Source: a virus. Taken from it: a DNA stretch of 40,777 nucleotides. The notes below the pieces were generated by a model. It was not told the origin of the DNA and made no database searches. It was given only the letters and a program-made list of their open reading frames with translations. The stretch covers positions 1 through 40,777 of the IMG/VR virus record IMGVR_UViG_3300022916_000003; one strand, written 5' to 3'. Both the position numbers and the translations under genes were made by a program. Shown here piece after piece: positions 5,441 to 27,547 of this stretch (positions are counted from its first letter, which is position 1; every line of letters begins with the position of its first letter).

Positions 5441-5620
5441 ATGAAATCGGAAGATTTATCTTTTTGGCAAACCGTAGTCCTGACTTTTAAAATTGTTACA
5501 GCTATGTTGCCTTCTATAATTTTATCACAATTAACAGAAGGTGGGGTTTTTATGATAGTTGGTATGCTTAATTTTTGGCTTATAGGATATATGGGTAATA
5601 AAATGTGGAACTTTAAGTAA
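5441..5620 (+). CDS. Small two-helix membrane protein, 59 residues
   Basis: The 59-residue product has a short polar start (MKSEDLSFWQ) and two hydrophobic helices, about 11-30 and 34-52. A leaderless start is supported by the TATA box about 27 bases upstream. It ends 20 bases before the DUF378-like gene at 5641, and its last codons lie inside a 97-base block that is repeated at 8476. Function unknown; possibly a minor coat or envelope component. Confidence 0.6.
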   Translation: MKSEDLSFWQTVVLTFKIVTAMLPSIILSQLTEGGVFMIVGMLNFWLIGYMGNKMWNFK

Positions 5621-5708
5621 TGAAAGGAGGTTTAATAAATATGTTTAACAAAAAACAATGGAAGAATATTGATAAGATTTCTGGTTGGTTGGTTGTGGTT
5701 GGTGCTAT
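5612..5708 (+). repeat. 97-base direct repeat, copy 1
   Basis: Bases 5612-5708 are identical to 8476-8572. The block covers a stop codon, the Shine-Dalgarno sequence GAAAGGAGGT and the first 22 codons of the DUF378-like gene. Identity ends abruptly inside the codon for residue 23. Confidence 0.95.
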
Positions 5709-8083: not shown

Positions 8084-8512
8084 ATGTATCTAAAAAAATT
8101 ACTGATAGGCATAATTATATTTATGTCTTTGGTAACTGTATCGCAATATATAATATATCCAGCTTGGCTTTCTGTGTATGCTTCATGCCAACCTCATGAA
8201 TTTAACGAAACTCTACAAGGCAAATATGAGATAGTGGGTAAGGGTTTGATAAACACAACGGACTGCAACTCGACAAATAAGATATCTCTATATGTAAAAG
8301 ATAAGGATAATGTCCCAATATTAATGCATGAATATTGTCATATTAATCAATTTAACAGGGGGTATTTTAGTCTTTCCTGTGAGCATCGAATACAAAAGCT
8401 TTTTTCAGAAATGGAATGTTACTCTATACAAAGATATTGGGAAATAAGAGAGATCTTCGGCTTTACTGGAGATTATTTAAGTAATGAAAGGAGGTTTAAT
8501 AAATATGTTTAA
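8084..8512 (+). CDS. Membrane-anchored zinc metallopeptidase-like protein
   Basis: A 142-residue protein with an N-terminal membrane helix (about 5-24) and an external domain. The zinc-binding motif HEYCH (residues 82-86) is followed about 25 residues later by Glu within SEMEC, the arrangement of an HExxH gluzincin. The catalytic Glu83 and both histidines are present. At about 110 residues the domain is short for a protease. A host-wall, entry or processing role is inferred. The last 12 codons read through the ribosome-binding block of the next gene, which is part of the 97-base repeat, so the original C-terminus may have been altered by that duplication. Confidence 0.72.
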   Translation: MYLKKLLIGIIIFMSLVTVSQYIIYPAWLSVYASCQPHEFNETLQGKYEIVGKGLINTTDCNSTNKISLYVKDKDNVPILMHEYCHINQFNRGYFSLSCEHRIQKLFSEMECYSIQRYWEIREIFGFTGDYLSNERRFNKYV

Positions 8513-8572
8513 CAAAAAACAATGGAAGAATATTGATAAGATTTCTGGTTGGTTGGTTGTGGTTGGTGCTAT
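8476..8572 (+). repeat. 97-base direct repeat, copy 2
   Basis: Identical to 5612-5708. Here the block is fused behind the metallopeptidase frame and in front of an unrelated 3' half. Confidence 0.95.
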
Positions 8573-12241: not shown

Positions 12242-12303
12242 TTGAAAGGAGGTATAAAGAATGAAAATAAAAAATAAAACTCATTCGTGGATGAAATGAG
12301 TAA
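12242..12303 (+). repeat. Leader block of duplicated cassette, copy 1
   Basis: This stretch, with the strong ribosome-binding site GAAAGGAGGT, nearly matches 24688-24749; I count one difference in the coding part. It encodes a 12-residue leader and the start of the coupled gene. Confidence 0.85.
12261..12299 (+). CDS. 12-residue leader peptide MKIKNKTHSWMK
   Basis: A short frame directly behind GAAAGGAGGT, whose TGA overlaps the ATG of the next gene (ATGA at 12296). The same peptide with one substitution, MKIENKTHSWMK, recurs at 24707 in the same arrangement. Conservation of both the ribosome-binding site and the peptide suggests it is translated and passes ribosomes to the next gene. Confidence 0.55.
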   Translation: MKIKNKTHSWMK

Positions 12304-12469
12304 ATGCATAGAGATAAATGGAGCATCCGGCAAATACAAAAGAGAATTTACATGTGAGATGAGTCTCGATGAAACAGATGAAGAAATCGAAGCATTGATA
12401 AAATTCCTTAGAAATATGGACTGTTGTAGCTGGGCTCAAGAATTGGCTGACATTATCGAGAACAAGTAA
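12296..12469 (+). CDS. Small cassette protein, paralogue of 24742
   Basis: A 57-residue acidic protein starting MSKCIEI, with GKYKREFTCEMSL near the N-terminus and the ending ELADIIENK. The paralogue at 24742 shares MSxCE, GKYxxxFTC and the same last residues while the middle varies. The start at 12296 is set by the ATGA overlap with the leader peptide; a GTG at 12287 in the same frame is the alternative. Function unknown. Confidence 0.62.
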   Translation: MSKCIEINGASGKYKREFTCEMSLDETDEEIEALIKFLRNMDCCSWAQELADIIENK

Positions 12470-12520
12470 ACCAAACATTTATTATTATTTTATTTCATAC
12501 TCAGCAATGAGAGCGGACGA
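12469..12520 (+). repeat. Spacer block of duplicated cassette, copy 1
   Basis: Matches 25009-25060 with few differences, including CATACTCAGCAATGAGAGCG. It sits between the small gene and the tRNA-like element in both cassettes; identity stops where the tRNA-like bodies begin. Confidence 0.85.
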
Positions 12521-12594
12521 AAACGCTTTGAGGGGCTAGCGCTGGTAAAAAACCTAGGCTCAATGAAACGCGGGTTCGAATCCCGCCGCCCGCT
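12513..12594 (+). ncRNA. tRNA-like element A
   Basis: A T-arm is exact: GCGGG, loop TTCGAAT, CCCGC (12570-12586). The next seven bases CGCCCGC pair with GCGGACG (12513-12519) with one mismatch, making an 82-base element with acceptor and T-arm. The 50 bases between do not form a clear D-arm or an anticodon loop with T33, apart from a possible stem CGCT/AGCG. It is therefore tRNA-like rather than a proven tRNA; an intron-bearing or decayed tRNA is the alternative. Confidence 0.5.
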
Positions 12595-12598
12595 TTGT

Positions 12599-12667
12599 GA
12601 CCCCGAAGCCGGTGAATGTTTGAGTTCGCTACTCATTCATAGGCGGGTTCGAATCCCGCCGGGGTCG
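12599..12667 (+). ncRNA. tRNA-like element B
   Basis: A perfect 7-base-pair acceptor, GACCCCG (12599-12605) with CGGGGTC (12660-12666), encloses a perfect T-arm (GCGGG, TTCGAAT, CCCGC). The 37 bases between are too short for normal D and anticodon arms. They form one hairpin with TGAG and CTCA around TTCGCTA, which would read CGC but has T at position 37. At 69 bases this could be a D-arm-reduced tRNA or a processing signal. It starts four bases after element A. Confidence 0.55.
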
Positions 12668-12707
12668 TTGGGTTAAGTAATAGAAAGGTCACCGCTTAAA
12701 AGAACCC

Positions 12708-12758
12708 TGACACTCGGGAAAGACCGGGATTATAATTAAAATGGTGACAAAAAGATGA
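12708..12758 (+). promoter_or_regulatory. Leader hairpin and mini-frame before 12755
   Basis: Thirty-six bases (12708-12743) are identical to 25172-25207. They include a stem CTCGG/CCGGG around GAAAGA, then ATTATAATTAAAATG. Here the ATG opens a five-codon frame (MVTKR) whose TGA overlaps the start at 12755. In the second cassette the same ATG starts the gene itself. Confidence 0.6.
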
Positions 12759-17847: not shown

Positions 17848-18204
17848 TTATGCGTTAAAAATACTGGTCAGTATATTATCGATATTCTCTGCATGTTTAA
17901 GACATAATCTATTGGATGCCTGTTTGCTGAAATTACATATTGGATTTTTAATAATATTAACTTGTTTCTTGTCAGGATATTCGTTAATTAATTCTTTAAT
18001 AATTTCTTCTTTACCTATCCATATTGCATGGGCTTCTGGATACGGATAACTGAGACTATTCGTCCAAATTCTAGCTTTCTGTATGTTTTCCAGCTTTTCT
18101 TTAAGTTTATTTAATATCTTATCTCGTTCTTGTTTTTTTATAGACTCATAATTCTCCCTATAAATCTTATCAATCTTATGTATAAATGTATCTGGTTTGT
18201 TCAT
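17848..18204 (-). CDS. Helical protein, full-length paralogue of 26102
   Basis: A 118-residue protein. Residues 8-62 are closely related to the frame at 26102: YRENYESIKKQERDKILNKL and LSYPYPEAHAIWIGKEE match with few changes. The C-terminus holds CNFSKQASNRLCLKHAENI, a possible zinc or DNA contact region. The first half is probably a coiled coil. The gene is complete here, whereas the other copy is frameshifted. Function unknown. Confidence 0.65.
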   Translation of the reverse strand: MNKPDTFIHKIDKIYRENYESIKKQERDKILNKLKEKLENIQKARIWTNSLSYPYPEAHAIWIGKEEIIKELINEYPDKKQVNIIKNPICNFSKQASNRLCLKHAENIDNILTSIFNA

Positions 18205-20200: not shown

Positions 20201-21136
20201 ATGAAATTTATAGATTTATTCGCAGGAATAGGCGGGTTTAGAATAGCATTAGAAGAATTAGGAGGAAAATGTGTTTTTAGTTCTGAATGGGACAATAAAG
20301 CACAAGAAACCTATAGGGAAAACTTTAAAGAGACCCCAGCGGGAGATATAACAAAAATAAAAGAGTCTAATATTCCATCTCATGATATGCTTTGTGCTGG
20401 ATTTCCATGTCAAGCGTTTAGTATATCTGGAAATCAAAAGGGGTTTAATGACACTAGGGGAACTTTGTTTTTTGATATTATTAGAATAGCAAACCATCAT
20501 AAATCAAAAATTCTTTTTTTGGAAAATGTTAGAAATCTGAAAAGACATAATAACGGAAGAACATTGAAAATAATATTAAAAAATCTTGATAAGATAGGAT
20601 ATAATGTTTTTTATCAAGTATTAAGAGCGAGTGATTATGGCGTTCCGCAATCAAGAGAAAGAATATATTTTGTTTGTTTTAGAAAAGATTTGATGATAGA
20701 AGACTTTAGTTTTCCCAGTCCTACTTATGAAAGAATATATTTAAGACATATTTTAGAAAAAGATGTTGATGAAGAATTTTTTATTAATAGGAAAGATGTC
20801 GTCTTTTTTGACAGAGAAGAATACAAAGGACTTAAGCCGATTCAGATTGGAAAAATAAATAAGGGTGGGCAAGGAGAAAGAATATACGGAATAAACGGTC
20901 ATGCAATAACCCTTTCTGCATACGGAGGCGGAGTAGCTGGAAAGACGGGGGCATACTTAATTAATGGTAAAATAAGAAAATTAACTCCCAGAGAATGTGC
21001 AAGAGTTCAAGGATTCCCAGAATGGTTTAATATTCCAGTTTCAAAAAGTCAAGCCTATAAACAATTTGGGAATAGTGTAAGCGTTCCGGTTATAAAAAAA
21101 ATAGCAGAAGAAATTATTAAATCTATCAATATTTAA
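20201..21136 (+). CDS. DNA cytosine-5 methyltransferase
   Basis: A complete 311-residue enzyme that transfers a methyl group from S-adenosylmethionine to cytosine C5 in a specific DNA site. Motif I FAGIGGF (7-13), motif IV GFPCQAFS with catalytic Cys70, motif VI ENV (108-110), motif VIII QSRERIYF (150-157), and near the end LTPRECARVQGFP and YKQFGNSVSVPV (motifs IX and X) are all in the right order. The target-recognition part between VIII and IX is short. No restriction endonuclease lies beside it, so it is likely an orphan that protects the element from host cleavage. Confidence 0.93.
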   Translation: MKFIDLFAGIGGFRIALEELGGKCVFSSEWDNKAQETYRENFKETPAGDITKIKESNIPSHDMLCAGFPCQAFSISGNQKGFNDTRGTLFFDIIRIANHHKSKILFLENVRNLKRHNNGRTLKIILKNLDKIGYNVFYQVLRASDYGVPQSRERIYFVCFRKDLMIEDFSFPSPTYERIYLRHILEKDVDEEFFINRKDVVFFDREEYKGLKPIQIGKINKGGQGERIYGINGHAITLSAYGGGVAGKTGAYLINGKIRKLTPRECARVQGFPEWFNIPVSKSQAYKQFGNSVSVPVIKKIAEEIIKSINI

Positions 21137-23746: not shown

Positions 23747-24049
23747 ATGAAAACACAAATATTTGGTAGTTATGATGATTTCTTTAACAGAGAAGATAAA
23801 TCGATTAATGGAGTTGATAAAGGATTTGCTGAGATATTTTCTAATTATGAAAAGATGAATGAGACCAATAAAGGTTGTTGGGATTGTAATGATTGTGAGT
23901 ATTGTGAGGGTTGTAAGGGTTGTGAGTATTGTGAGGGTTGTGAGTATTGTGAGGGTTGTAGGTATTGTAAGGGTTGTAGGTATTGTAAGGGTTGTGATGG
24001 TTGTGATGGTCTTAATAGCGCTGTAGGTTTAGTTGGGGGGATAAAATGA
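23747..24049 (+). CDS. Cysteine-repeat protein (CxxC tandem repeats)
   Basis: A 100-residue protein. After a polar 40-residue head, about 45 residues are made of CxxC steps (CEYCEGC, CRYCKGC, CDGC) encoded by near-identical GAGTATTGTGAGGGTTGT units. Similar Cys-x-x-Cys ladders occur in phage proteins related to pentapeptide-type solenoids; metal binding is the alternative. The DNA repeats point to recent expansion by slippage. It overlaps the zinc-ribbon gene that follows. Confidence 0.72.
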   Translation: MKTQIFGSYDDFFNREDKSINGVDKGFAEIFSNYEKMNETNKGCWDCNDCEYCEGCKGCEYCEGCEYCEGCRYCKGCRYCKGCDGCDGLNSAVGLVGGIK

Positions 24050-24479: not shown

Positions 24480-24723
24480 AAAAGGGACGTACGTAAAAAT
24501 AAGAATCAGAAAAAAACTGGCGAAGATTATCCGAGATGTACTTAATGCTCATCCAAATCAAATGTATATAACCTATAAGGAAGTGCAAGAGATATCCTTA
24601 AAATGTTTTGAGGCTGGAGTTGAAGATGTTGCGGATAAGGTGGTGGAAGCTAAAACCGGATTTTTCAAAGATAAAGAAAGAAAGGAATTGAAAGGAGGTA
24701 TAAAGAATGAAAATAGAAAATAA
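24472..24723 (+). CDS. Small basic helical protein
   Basis: An 83-residue basic protein (KIRIRKKLAKIIRDVLNAHP) with no known motif. Its last codons contain the GAAAGGAGGT that serves the leader peptide at 24707, as in the first cassette, so the cassette begins inside this gene. Confidence 0.6.
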   Translation: MNKKGTYVKIRIRKKLAKIIRDVLNAHPNQMYITYKEVQEISLKCFEAGVEDVADKVVEAKTGFFKDKERKELKGGIKNENRK

Positions 24724-24749
24724 AACTCATTCGTGGATGAAATGAGTAG
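24688..24749 (+). repeat. Leader block of duplicated cassette, copy 2
   Basis: Nearly identical to 12242-12303: ribosome-binding site, leader peptide frame and ATGA coupling are kept. The base change turns one Lys codon (AAA) into Glu (GAA). Confidence 0.85.
24707..24745 (+). CDS. 12-residue leader peptide MKIENKTHSWMK
   Basis: Second copy of the leader at 12261, again right behind GAAAGGAGGT and overlapping the next start by ATGA. The peptide is conserved apart from one residue. Confidence 0.55.
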   Translation: MKIENKTHSWMK

Positions 24750-24921
24750 TTGTGAATTGGTTAAAACTCCTGGTAAATACAGAAAAAATTTTACTTGTAA
24801 AATAGGTCTAAGCATGGTTCCTGATAGCGGAATAGAGGAGATCATCAAAAATCTTAGAAATATCTCGACTGGATACGATAAATGGGCAAGTCAACTAGCT
24901 GACATCATCGAGAACAAATGA
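24742..24921 (+). CDS. Small cassette protein, paralogue of 12296
   Basis: A 59-residue protein, MSSCELVKTPGKYRKNFTC at the start and QLADIIENK at the end, both shared with the first copy, with a different centre (SMVPDSGIEEIIKNLRNIS). Coupled to the leader and to the 30-residue gene that follows. Function unknown. Confidence 0.62.
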   Translation: MSSCELVKTPGKYRKNFTCKIGLSMVPDSGIEEIIKNLRNISTGYDKWASQLADIIENK

Positions 24922-25010
24922 TATGTGAGGACTGTGAACAGGAGTTTGAGTGTTACGAAGGAGAATTTGACGGTGATGACTTTAAGTGCTATCAGTGCTT
25001 AGAGAACTAA
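24918..25010 (+). CDS. 30-residue CxxC mini-protein
   Basis: Starts in the stop of the previous gene (ATGA). Two CxxC pairs (CEDC and CYQC) and Cys12 in a very acidic 30-residue chain suggest a minimal zinc site. It is absent from the first cassette, so it was gained or lost there. Confidence 0.5.
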   Translation: MICEDCEQEFECYEGEFDGDDFKCYQCLEN

Positions 25011-25060
25011 ACCAAACATTTATTATTTTTTTATTTCATACTCAGCAATGAGAGCGGACG
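25009..25060 (+). repeat. Spacer block of duplicated cassette, copy 2
   Basis: Matches 12469-12520 with few differences. After it the two cassettes diverge into different tRNA-like bodies. Confidence 0.85.
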
Positions 25061-25063
25061 AGA

Positions 25064-25148
25064 GAAGAAGGCACCAAAGTTGATGGAGCTGGGCTTCAGA
25101 GCCGATACTCGGACATTGGTTAAGCGGGTTCGAATCCCGCCGTCTTCA
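25064..25148 (+). ncRNA. tRNA-like element C
   Basis: A perfect T-arm (GCGGG, TTCGAAT, CCCGC; 25124-25140) is followed by CGTCTTC, which pairs with GAAGAAG (25064-25070) except at one position. The 53 bases between hold a small stem CCA/TGG and a hairpin GGCT/AGCC around TCAG, but no regular five-pair anticodon stem. If CTTCAGA were the loop, the anticodon would be TCA. At 85 bases it is the size of a class II tRNA, yet the fold is aberrant. Confidence 0.5.
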
Positions 25149-25171
25149 CGTGGGACTAACACGTAAAAACT

Positions 25172-25207
25172 TGACACTCGGGAAAGACCGGGATTATAAT
25201 TAAAATG
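25172..25207 (+). promoter_or_regulatory. Conserved leader hairpin before 25205
   Basis: Identical over 36 bases to 12708-12743. The stem CTCGG/CCGGG is 14 bases before the ATG at 25205. Perfect conservation where the neighbours have diverged indicates function in the RNA or DNA. Confidence 0.6.
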
Positions 25208-25486
25208 CAAAACAAAAAAGAAAACATCGCGAAAATGAATAGAAAGAAAATTATAGATTTTGAATATAAGGCAAGACGTTTATTTTTTAGCTTTATAGAA
25301 AGTGTCGAAGGATTAGATGAATCTTTTTGTGATTGTAACGCTATAGATGGAATACATGAAAAGGACTGTATGACCTCGTTGTTTAGATTGGATGTGCAAA
25401 CTTTGGAAAATAGATATAATGAATTAAAAAATAAATATTCAGAACTTTTTTTATATAAATCAGGTAAAGACGATGAAGATTCTTAA
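25205..25486 (+). CDS. Small helical protein, unknown
   Basis: A 93-residue helical protein with CDC near residue 45 and a downstream Cys. The first codons (MQNKKENIAK) nearly match those of the 50-residue gene at 26339 (MENKKENIAK), including the preceding TAATTAAAA, so the start region was duplicated. It overlaps the methyltransferase gene at 25473. Confidence 0.6.
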   Translation: MQNKKENIAKMNRKKIIDFEYKARRLFFSFIESVEGLDESFCDCNAIDGIHEKDCMTSLFRLDVQTLENRYNELKNKYSELFLYKSGKDDEDS

Positions 25487-26105
25487 CTTATGTTCTGGGC
25501 TAGGGGGAAATAGGAGACTTTGGGGTGACAATCATGAGATTACAGCGGTAGAATTAGACCCTAAAATAGCTAAGGCGTATCAGGATAATTTCCCAAATGA
25601 TAAAGTCATTACTGGAAACGCAGAGGCATATTTATTACAACATTATAAAGAGTTTGATTTTATATGGATAAGTAGACCATGCCAATCTCATACTAGGATG
25701 ATTAGGTGTGGAAAGAATAGAAAACCAATATTGCCAGATATGTCCCTATATGGAGATATAATATTTTTACAACATAATTTTAAGGGTAAATGGGTTGTAG
25801 AAAATGTTAAGCCATACTATATACCTCTAATAAAACCTACAAAAGAAATAGGAAGGCATCTTATTTGGGCTAATTTTGACATAGAAGATTTTGAGCAAAA
25901 AACAATTCCAAATTTTATTATGAAATGCAATACAGCAGGAGCGGAAGAGTTGAAAAAAGAATATGGATTAAACTACAAAGGGAATATTTACTATAAGAAC
26001 AATCATGATCCAGCCCAAGTTTTAAGGAATTGTGTTAATCCTAATATAGCACTCCATATATTGACATATGCAATTAAAGCGATATTTATGGAGGGAAGAA
26101 AATGA
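25473..26105 (+). CDS. Short DNA cytosine-5 methyltransferase-like protein
   Basis: A 210-residue protein with a C5-methyltransferase layout: LCSGLGGNRRLW (motif I, degenerate), VELDP (motif II), SRPCQSH with candidate catalytic Cys70, and VVENVKPYY (110-116). The C-terminus is shorter than in full enzymes and the QxRxR motif is not clear, as in small phage-type members of the family. It may be active on a short site or may have lost activity. It ends in an ATGA overlap with the following frame. Confidence 0.78.
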   Translation: MKILNLCSGLGGNRRLWGDNHEITAVELDPKIAKAYQDNFPNDKVITGNAEAYLLQHYKEFDFIWISRPCQSHTRMIRCGKNRKPILPDMSLYGDIIFLQHNFKGKWVVENVKPYYIPLIKPTKEIGRHLIWANFDIEDFEQKTIPNFIMKCNTAGAEELKKEYGLNYKGNIYYKNNHDPAQVLRNCVNPNIALHILTYAIKAIFMEGRK

Positions 26106-26337
26106 GTAAACAAGAATTTGTAGAAAAAGTTAATGAAATATATAAAGAGAATTATGAATCCGCGAAAAGAGTAGAGCGACATAAAATATTGAATAAGCTT
26201 AAAGAAAAGCTAAAGGACATACAAAAAGCTAAGGCTTGGTCTGTCGGTCTAAGTTATCCATATCCGGAAGCCCATGCAATCTGGATGGGCAAACATTATC
26301 AGTGGTAACTGAAATAATCAGGCAGATGCTTAATTAA
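26102..26337 (+). pseudogene. Frameshifted paralogue of the 17848 gene
   Basis: Residues 1-63 follow the 118-residue minus-strand protein closely (LKEKLKDIQKAKAW, LSYPYPEAHAIWMGK). Then the frame ends early at 26308 with HYQW. A different frame continues VTEIIRQMLN to a stop at 26337, matching EEIIKELIN of the paralogue. A frameshift near 26290-26304 is therefore likely, either real or a sequencing error. Even without it, the C-terminal third of the paralogue is missing. Confidence 0.6.
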
Positions 26338-26506: not shown

Positions 26507-27547
26507 ATGAAAATAGGCGAATTTGACTTAAATAAGGTTTATTGTATGAATTGTTTTGACATGCTTAAAGGTATCCCAGATAAATCAGTTAATTTGGTGC
26601 TGATTGATCCTCCTTATTTCCAAGTAATGAAGACTGATTGGAAAGGACAGAAATATGAATGGGATAATCAGTGGACAGGTATTAAAGAATATCAGGATTG
26701 GATTAAAAAATTAGGCTTAGAGGTAAAAAGGATTTTAAAAGACAATGGTTCTTTTTACATATTCGCAGATGATAAAGTTTGTGCCTATGTACAGGTTATT
26801 TTAGATGAGTTATTTATTTTATTAAATTCTATCACATGGGTTAAGCCAAATAATTTAACAATAAAAGGATGGAATCAATATCGTAGTTATGCACCGATTA
26901 CAGAAAAGATTCTATTTTATTCAAATGAATGGGATATAAATTCTAATAAAATCCTAGTAACAAAAGCATGTCGAGAATGCAAGGAGTATTTAAGGAATGA
27001 AATATCTAAGGCAAAAGGGGAGATTAACTTTATTAAAGTTGATGAAATTATTAAAAACCCTTTAAATAAAAGAGGCTCAGCTGATAAAATCCTTAGTCTA
27101 GCTTCAGTATATAACCATATGATTACCAAAAAGGAGTATATCAAACTTCAAGAATGGTTAAATAAAGATTGTAATCCGAATTATCAATATCTTTGTAAAG
27201 ATTATAATGAACTTTATTTAAATTATGAAAAGTCATATGAGGACTATAAATATATTCGTCGCCCGTTTGAACCATCTAAAAACTTTACAGATGTTTGGAC
27301 ATTTAATATATTAGGAGTAAAAGAAAGTCTTGGCAAACATCCAACACAAAAACCACTCGCAATAATCAAAAGAATTATCGAAACATCATCGAGAGAGGGT
27401 GATATAGTATTGGATTGTTTTATGGGTTCAGGCACTACCGCAAAAGCTTCGTATGAGTTATATAGAAAGTTTATAGGTTGCGATATAAACCAAGAATATG
27501 TCAATTTAACTAACGGGAGACTTAAGCAAAAAGTTTTAACATGGTAA
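26507..27547 (+). CDS. DNA adenine-N6 or cytosine-N4 methyltransferase
   Basis: A 346-residue enzyme with motif IV DPPY (34-37) near the N-terminus and motifs HPTQKP (about 278) and DCFMGSGTT (about 303-311, SAM binding) near the C-terminus. This is the beta-class order. The 150-residue insert between them should hold the target-recognition domain. It methylates an amino group in a specific DNA site using S-adenosylmethionine. No cognate endonuclease is seen, so it is likely a protective orphan. The gene has its own start after a short gap and is followed by a TATA-rich region. Confidence 0.92.
   Translation: MKIGEFDLNKVYCMNCFDMLKGIPDKSVNLVLIDPPYFQVMKTDWKGQKYEWDNQWTGIKEYQDWIKKLGLEVKRILKDNGSFYIFADDKVCAYVQVILDELFILLNSITWVKPNNLTIKGWNQYRSYAPITEKILFYSNEWDINSNKILVTKACRECKEYLRNEISKAKGEINFIKVDEIIKNPLNKRGSADKILSLASVYNHMITKKEYIKLQEWLNKDCNPNYQYLCKDYNELYLNYEKSYEDYKYIRRPFEPSKNFTDVWTFNILGVKESLGKHPTQKPLAIIKRIIETSSREGDIVLDCFMGSGTTAKASYELYRKFIGCDINQEYVNLTNGRLKQKVLTW

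Follow-up and report, generated by a model that had tools for sequence, protein, structure and literature searches.

The window, that is, the whole stretch of DNA analysed (40,777 nucleotides), is an entire IMG/VR virus record. It contains two copies of a cassette, A and B, in which a leader block, a small-protein gene, a spacer, tRNA-like RNA and a hairpin block follow one another (Table 1). The initial annotation had claimed a duplicated cassette with these parts in this order, and every part it named was found in the same order in both copies. Alignment of the copies gives identities of 60/61 for the leader, 55/57 for the spacer and 36/36 for the hairpin block. Collinear blocks of 36–61 nt at 96–100% identity, located 12.4 kb apart, are far beyond chance. 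The payloads between these blocks have diverged, both in the small ORFs and in the tRNA-like bodies, which share little except the T-arm. The reported identity of the 36-base hairpin block and the conserved ends of the small protein were thus borne out. The conserved spacer is present in both copies, at a length of 57 nt rather than the 52 given originally. A tRNA-like element likewise occurs in both cassettes, and the count of one per cassette applies only to B, since A carries two in tandem. The view that non-coding parts are as conserved as coding ones was correct about the former and understated the difference: the leader, spacer and hairpin are conserved at 96–100%, whereas the small ORFs and tRNA-like bodies are not.

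Table 1. Features of the two cassettes (positions in the window)
Feature	Positions	Strand	Description	Basis
Cassette A	12242-12743			
Leader block A	12242-12302	+	strong SD and leader ORF, with GAAAGGAGGT	60/61 vs copy B
Leader ORF A	12261-12299	+	MKIKNKTHSWMK, then stop; TGA overlaps small-ORF ATG (ATGA)	sequence
Small protein A	12296-12469	+	57 aa	sequence
Spacer block A	12464-12520	+	57 nt; stop codon, T-rich TTTATTATTATTTTATTT, small hairpin CTCAGCAATGAG, start of tRNA-like element 1	55/57
tRNA-like element 1, A	12513-12593	+	acceptor GCGGACG 12513-12519 / CGCCCGC 12587-12593, one mismatch; T-arm 12570-12586	sequence
tRNA-like element 2, A	12599-12666	+	acceptor GACCCCG / CGGGGTC, 7 bp; T-arm GCGGGTTCGAATCCCGC	fold
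Stem a, A	12670-12707	+	GGGUU 12670-12674 / AACCC 12703-12707, abutting U of UGACA	complementarity
Hairpin block A	12708-12743	+	36 nt; U 12708, GACA 12709-12712, stem CUCGG 12713-12717, loop GAAAGA 12718-12723, stem CCGGG 12724-12728, then ATTATAATTAAAATG	36/36 vs B
Cassette B	24688-25207			
Leader block B	24688-24748	+		60/61 vs copy A
Leader ORF B	24707-24745	+	MKIENKTHSWMK, then stop; TGA overlaps small-ORF ATG (ATGA)	sequence
Small protein B	24742-24921	+	59 aa, 51% identical to A	sequence comparison
Extra ORF, B only	24918-25010	+	30 aa, CxxC...CxxC; ATGA-coupled, between small gene and spacer	
Spacer block B	25005-25061	+	57 nt	55/57 vs copy A
tRNA-like element, B	25064-25147	+	acceptor GAAGAAG 25064-25070 / CGTCTTC 25141-25147, one mismatch; T-arm 25124-25140	sequence, fold
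Hairpin block B	25172-25207	+	U 25172, GACA 25173-25176, CUCGG 25177-25181, GAAAGA 25182-25187, CCGGG 25188-25192	36/36 vs A

The two hairpin blocks differ in what they lead into. The last ATG of block A opens a mere 5-codon ORF that overlaps a 162-aa ORF by ATGA, and block B ends in the ATG (25205) of a 93-aa ORF. Directly behind cassette B lies the second of three DNA methyltransferase-like genes (20201-21136, 25473-26105 and 26507-27547; two C5-cytosine and one N6/N4). The window holds further repeats. An exact 109-nt direct repeat occupies both ends (1-109 and 40669-40777) within a PQQ-repeat gene; it may mean that the record is a complete circle, or it may have arisen during assembly from the 123-nt repeats of this gene. 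A 97-nt exact duplicate (5612-5708 and 8476-8572) covers the start of two small genes, probably for membrane proteins. An inverted 178-nt duplicate with 75% identity (18010-18187, minus strand; 26116-26293, plus strand) corresponds to related proteins with PYPEAHAIWxGK. A run of 9-nt repeats at 23857-24037 encodes CxGC/CxYC units in a 100-aa ORF, which follows several small ORFs (22.2-22.9 kb) with LNPELLE-like ends. Of the window proteins tested, few are known to family libraries, and the gene style gives the impression of an archaeal virus.

The leader peptide of both copies reads MKI(K/E)NKTHSWMK. In exact scans, no IMG/VR record matched a 28-nt stretch of the leader or a 22-nt stretch of the spacer, and the small protein has no relative in IMG/VR, Pfam or PHROGs. 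Consequently, these parts are attributed to a local duplication, and the proposal of a recurring unit, to be found in metagenomes by its leader and spacer, fell away. Translational control, also suggested originally, has nothing in its favour at the leader peptide beyond the ATGA overlap. One explanation of this kind is a translational attenuator, in which the leader peptide would be the functional unit while the hairpin and the tRNA-like RNA report tRNA charging. The strong SD, the ATGA overlap and the 60/61 identity of the leader ORF block would suit such a device, but over 400 nt separate the leader from the hairpin, and the hairpin recurs in hundreds of viruses that lack the leader block and the small protein. 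An attenuator is therefore considered highly unlikely. The spacer may have a promoter or terminator role; locus L017 has a comparable T-rich stretch 5' of its tRNA-like RNA.

At the level of the record, a small-ORF operon and a tRNA-like RNA gene bearing the hairpin motif have been duplicated locally. It is a separate matter whether this duplication is merely recent and does nothing apart from carrying its genes. The collinear order of payloads and blocks and the occurrence of the cassette in this virus alone are what such an event would leave, but the leader, spacer and hairpin blocks are 96–100% identical against small proteins down at 51%, and the hairpin covaries across viruses. A functionless duplication is contradicted for the hairpin and possible for the leader and spacer blocks; as an explanation of the whole, it has next to no probability. 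Because the hairpin recurs and the leader and small protein do not, the widespread element is the hairpin together with its tRNA or tRNA-like neighbour. The organised, undescribed system proposed for this locus is accordingly reduced to an apparently undescribed element in which a functional hairpin accompanies tRNA-like RNAs; the complete cassette was not seen to recur.

The tRNA-like elements depart from ordinary tRNAs. Tandem element 1 of copy A is without a normal anticodon arm, and its whole acceptor is not recovered in free folding. The Rfam tRNA model responds at 12599-12667 only, with 27.7 bits, under the 29-bit cut-off. A cloverleaf with a 7-nt anticodon loop was not seen by tRNA finders in any of the window's elements, and ARAGORN called no tRNA there. 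An intron-containing tRNA was considered and rejected, as the intron mode of ARAGORN gave none at the default score and only mutually overlapping, implausible calls at relaxed scores. Minimal tRNA-like RNAs occur elsewhere: in L031, L037, L051 and L085, they consist of an acceptor-type helix (up to 12-13 bp) and a T-arm, with the decoding part little developed or absent. Phage tRNA arrays and adjacent tRNA-like stable RNAs have been known since T4 and T5. The window's elements resemble rnaC and rnaD of T4 and RNA1, RNA2 and RNA3 of T5, which are annotated as stable RNAs (tRNA-like in T5) within tRNA clusters. The tRNA regions of T4 and T5, unlike the present locus, contain no copy of the hairpin, and neither does the searched stretch of HK022.

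The hairpin motif consists of a U, the sequence GRCR, a 5-bp stem with a closing G-C pair and a loop of the form GA-N(2-4)-GA, mostly GAAAGA; since the search patterns fixed the U, the first and last stem pairs and the first loop, the invariance of these positions is partly imposed. At least 287 fully paired instances were collected in about 250 loci, mostly IMG/VR contigs of very different phages; they were deduplicated only where the flanks were identical, so that the counts are not independent events, and the viral contigs are mostly metagenomic fragments. The 20-mer GACACTCGGGAAAGACCGGG alone recurs exactly in 6 unrelated viral contigs of IMG/VR, and in several of these it neighbours tRNAs, a tmRNA or T-arm-like sequences. 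The pattern TGACACTNNGGAAAGACNNRG, in which the inner stem letters are free, matched 86 contigs. With its four stem letters free, both free pairs are kept in 80 of 84 distinct instances, and the combinations seen are CT/AG, CG/CG, CC/GG, TT/AA, CA/TG, TC/GA, GT/AC, AC/GT, AG/CT and AT/AT. Two further pattern scans gave 64 fully paired instances of 79 and, among the matches listed, 118 of 121.

The stem is conserved as a structure rather than as a sequence. In an alignment of 53 cores, 92.5% of the pair cells are standard pairs, and 77 two-sided changes were counted against 23 in shuffles. The covariation score is 0.604, compared with 0.200 for shuffled alignments and at most 0.249 for slid structures. 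In the variable pairs, G.U and U.G occur 65 times and C.A and A.C 6 times. This wobble excess indicates that one strand is selected, and it is the strand of the neighbouring tRNAs. The initial annotation had asked for further instances and for variation that respects the hairpin pairing; both were found, with covariation in hundreds of viruses on the same strand as the adjacent tRNAs. A sigma-70 promoter (TTGACA...TATAAT) was rejected: TATAAT at the appropriate spacing is found only in the window, and the -2 base is free.

The loop follows a rule of its own. Degenerate copies near the seeds, which were not selected for their loop, carry GAGAGA, GAATAGA, GAATTAGA, GAAACGA, GACAGA and GAACAGA, all of the form GA-N(2-4)-GA; 13 of these neighbouring copies lie on the same strand and none on the opposite one. 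Cultured phages with the loop GAAGAGA are Vibrio 1.113.A, Yersinia P400 and Erwinia Gungnir39, and Enterobacter KKP_3711 has the loop GAAGTAGA directly after its tRNA array. Two tandem sheared G.A pairs atop the stem would account for the conservation of GA...GA. Such pairs might also be read by a protein, e.g., an L7Ae-family or viral protein recognising them as a K-loop and acting on RNA stability, translation or packaging instead of cleavage. The loop variants, which keep the flanking GA...GA with 2-4 nt between, would allow this geometry, and 31 copies precede SD-led ORFs. However, most copies have an A ahead of the second GA, a position usually held by U in the K-loops that L7Ae binds, and a universal protein would be needed, as the hosts differ widely. 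A protein-binding site is therefore regarded as unlikely. The lambdoid boxB is similarly a 5-bp hairpin with a GA-rich loop. In contrast to boxB, which is read by each phage's own N protein, one loop is common here to viruses of distant hosts and archaeal-like viruses.

Copies of the motif share their strand with the viral tRNA and tRNA-like genes and occupy leaders and gaps between cistrons. Where a tRNA follows, it typically begins 4-9 nt further on; other copies directly precede a long helix or an ORF. Among the 40 ARAGORN tRNAs within 100 nt downstream, 34 begin 4-9 nt past the hairpin, where about 0.2 would be expected by an estimate based on the density of tRNAs, and not one of the 40 is on the opposite strand. 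The nearest tRNA at any distance is on the same strand in 68 cases downstream and 57 upstream, and on the other strand in none of either. The downstream tRNAs belong to many isotypes, and CCA is encoded in 21 of 35. They are preceded by U in 22 of 34 cases, the base that bacterial RNase P favours before a tRNA. Leader-trailer pairing of the tRNAs was not significant, with none beyond chance. Downstream of 286 instances, 35 tRNAs, 21 tRNA-like elements, 68 long helices and 31 SD-led ORFs were recognised. The remaining 131 instances have none of these partners, so the link to tRNAs is strong but not universal. The hairpin lies outside ORFs of at least 100 aa in 195 of 287 instances, compared with 27% of random sites. 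In the annotated Microcystis phage Mvi-JY20, it ends 3-4 nt 5' of tRNA-Leu. The window shows the reverse of the commonest order, with the hairpin 3' of the tRNA-like elements and 5' of an ORF. The order of ORF, tRNA-like RNA, stem a or similar, and hairpin seen in the window is also that of the archaeal-like contigs L007 and L017; in L017, the tRNA-like/hairpin RNA is the final gene ahead of opposite-strand genes.

Helices adjoin the hairpin on both sides. A stem a ending one base before GRCR, with at least 5 Watson-Crick pairs, is present in 29 of 78 cases against 8.3 expected. In the window, stem a of copy A is incompletely recovered in free folding, and copy B has an upstream hairpin (25148-25164) that stops short of UGACA. 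A long helix with a score of at least 12 directly follows the hairpin in 23% of cases, compared with 1.1% of control sites. One such helix recurs with the sequence RCYAAYACGCAUGRGGAUUG / CAGUCCYCAGCCGUGUUGGU and the tail GAAUGCGCAGGCUGAUGCGC. This RNA, found directly after the hairpin in L066, L106, L140, L221 and L331 and without an Rfam match in L066, is probably a separate RNA family.

The arrays in L076, L061, L055 and L054 contain several hairpin copies, each with its own downstream RNA, and this arrangement bears on two further explanations. The first is a recombination hairpin acting at the DNA level, like attC, that moves tRNA cassettes among arrays. The copies have the orientation of their cassette, and some arrays have one copy per tRNA, as this model would predict. 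However, stem sequences differ among the copies within one virus (L076), an element acting as RNA would explain the G.U bias no less well, and copies also precede single ORFs and long-helix RNAs, which makes a recombination site very improbable. The second is antitermination by the nascent RNA, in which the hairpin pair would bind the viral or host RNA polymerase like the putRNA of HK022, and thereby allow full transcription of long, structured arrays of untranslated RNA. The motif shares with putRNA the character of a virus-specific cis RNA of two adjacent stem-loops, here in the leaders of untranslated RNAs, and the mechanism could work in bacteria and archaea alike if a conserved surface of RNA polymerase is read. 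Put RNAs work in cis without a protein partner, and a single put site is effective across at least 10 kb (PMC9378689), whereas the hairpin is present in several copies per array, each before its own tRNA. Moreover, comparison with the published structure shows that putRNA, at about 70 nt with two long stems, a triplex, contacts to the beta' zinc-binding domain and no short GA-capped hairpin, differs from the motif in sequence and fold; assignment of the motif to putRNA was rejected. Antitermination also gives no reason for the 4-9 nt spacing to the tRNA and is considered rather unlikely.

Other known systems were compared with the motif. Theta ribozymes, which are HDV-like, are small phage RNA elements that neighbour viral tRNA genes and are proposed to help mature the tRNAs (PMC10879173), and the likeness lies in these features. 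They abut the 3' end of the tRNA and have an HDV fold, whereas the motif is a short hairpin before the tRNA 5' end. The theta/HDV assignment was rejected on two counts: the cleavage site would lie within 5 nt of a tRNA 3' end, whereas the nearest upstream tRNA ends at least 23 nt before the hairpin; and the conserved core is a single hairpin instead of a nested double pseudoknot, with no HDV-type Rfam family in the loci searched. Bacterial Y RNAs (YrlA), partners of Ro60, likewise join a tRNA-like domain to a conserved stem. In Mvi-JY20 (L327 2501-3993), the hairpin and tRNA-Leu are followed by a TROVE/vWA (Ro60-like) gene. Of 47 hairpin-bearing virus records, this is the one with a TROVE gene, the other 46 having none, and the YrlA covariance model scores 15.2 bits against a cut-off of 69. 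A Y RNA was therefore rejected.

Named phages with the motif are the crAss-like cr272_1, Xanthomonas FoX2, zth2-2 and Mvi-JY20, with FoX5 added by sequence match; cr273_1, a relative of cr272_1, has it with one mismatch. No motif was found in 582 sampled cellular genomes of two phyla apart from two seed genomes, and one stem version searched against 84,980 species genomes matched three contigs. There was no match in E. coli genomes for the loop variant GAAGAGA or in plasmids for the loop GAAAGA. Rfam 15 shows no family at the hairpin at gathering or relaxed thresholds, and in the open literature no paper contains the 17-mer. The hairpin is a virus-specific RNA motif and, by the measure of Rfam and the open literature, apparently undescribed. 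The literature search with GGAAAGAC led only to 23S rRNA positions 2056-2063. There, in the macrolide-binding loop of E. coli 23S rRNA (L326, about 2048-2063), GGCAAGACGGAAAGAC fits GRCR-N4-GGAAAGAC in register; the chance of this is estimated at roughly one in a thousand, and it may be a coincidence.

The 4-9 nt spacing, the single copy per unit, the selection of one strand and the position outside ORFs fit RNA processing better than antitermination or recombination. From these sequence patterns, it is put forward, with about even confidence, that the hairpin is a cis-acting boundary element, probably a 5'-end element, of viral stable RNA units. In this role, it would separate stable untranslated RNAs (tRNAs, tRNA-like and long-helix RNAs) from their neighbours and define the 5' end of the downstream unit. 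It would most likely do so by guiding or carrying out RNA cleavage, which could be the work of a host enzyme or of the RNA itself, or by stopping exonucleases. In the window, its action would free the tRNA-like RNAs from an mRNA whose first ATG lies 12 nt past the hairpin. A bolder proposal, which has only a small probability, is that stem a, U-GRCR, the GA-capped hairpin and the downstream helix together act either as a small self-cleaving ribozyme of a new class or as a universal element that forms 5' ends by RNA alone. Viruses of bacteria and archaea would then mature their tRNAs and tRNA-like RNAs without host enzymes.

As a feature that can be mutated, the motif offers a concrete approach to the ways in which viruses arrange and process tRNA arrays and tRNA-like RNAs. 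It is shared by crAss-like, Xanthomonas, cyanobacterial and metagenomic phages and by archaeal-like viruses, and it can serve as a marker for stable RNA genes missed by tRNA finders. Should RNA cleavage or a rewiring of RNA polymerase prove to be its function, the motif would be a new RNA tool of viruses whose hosts span two domains.
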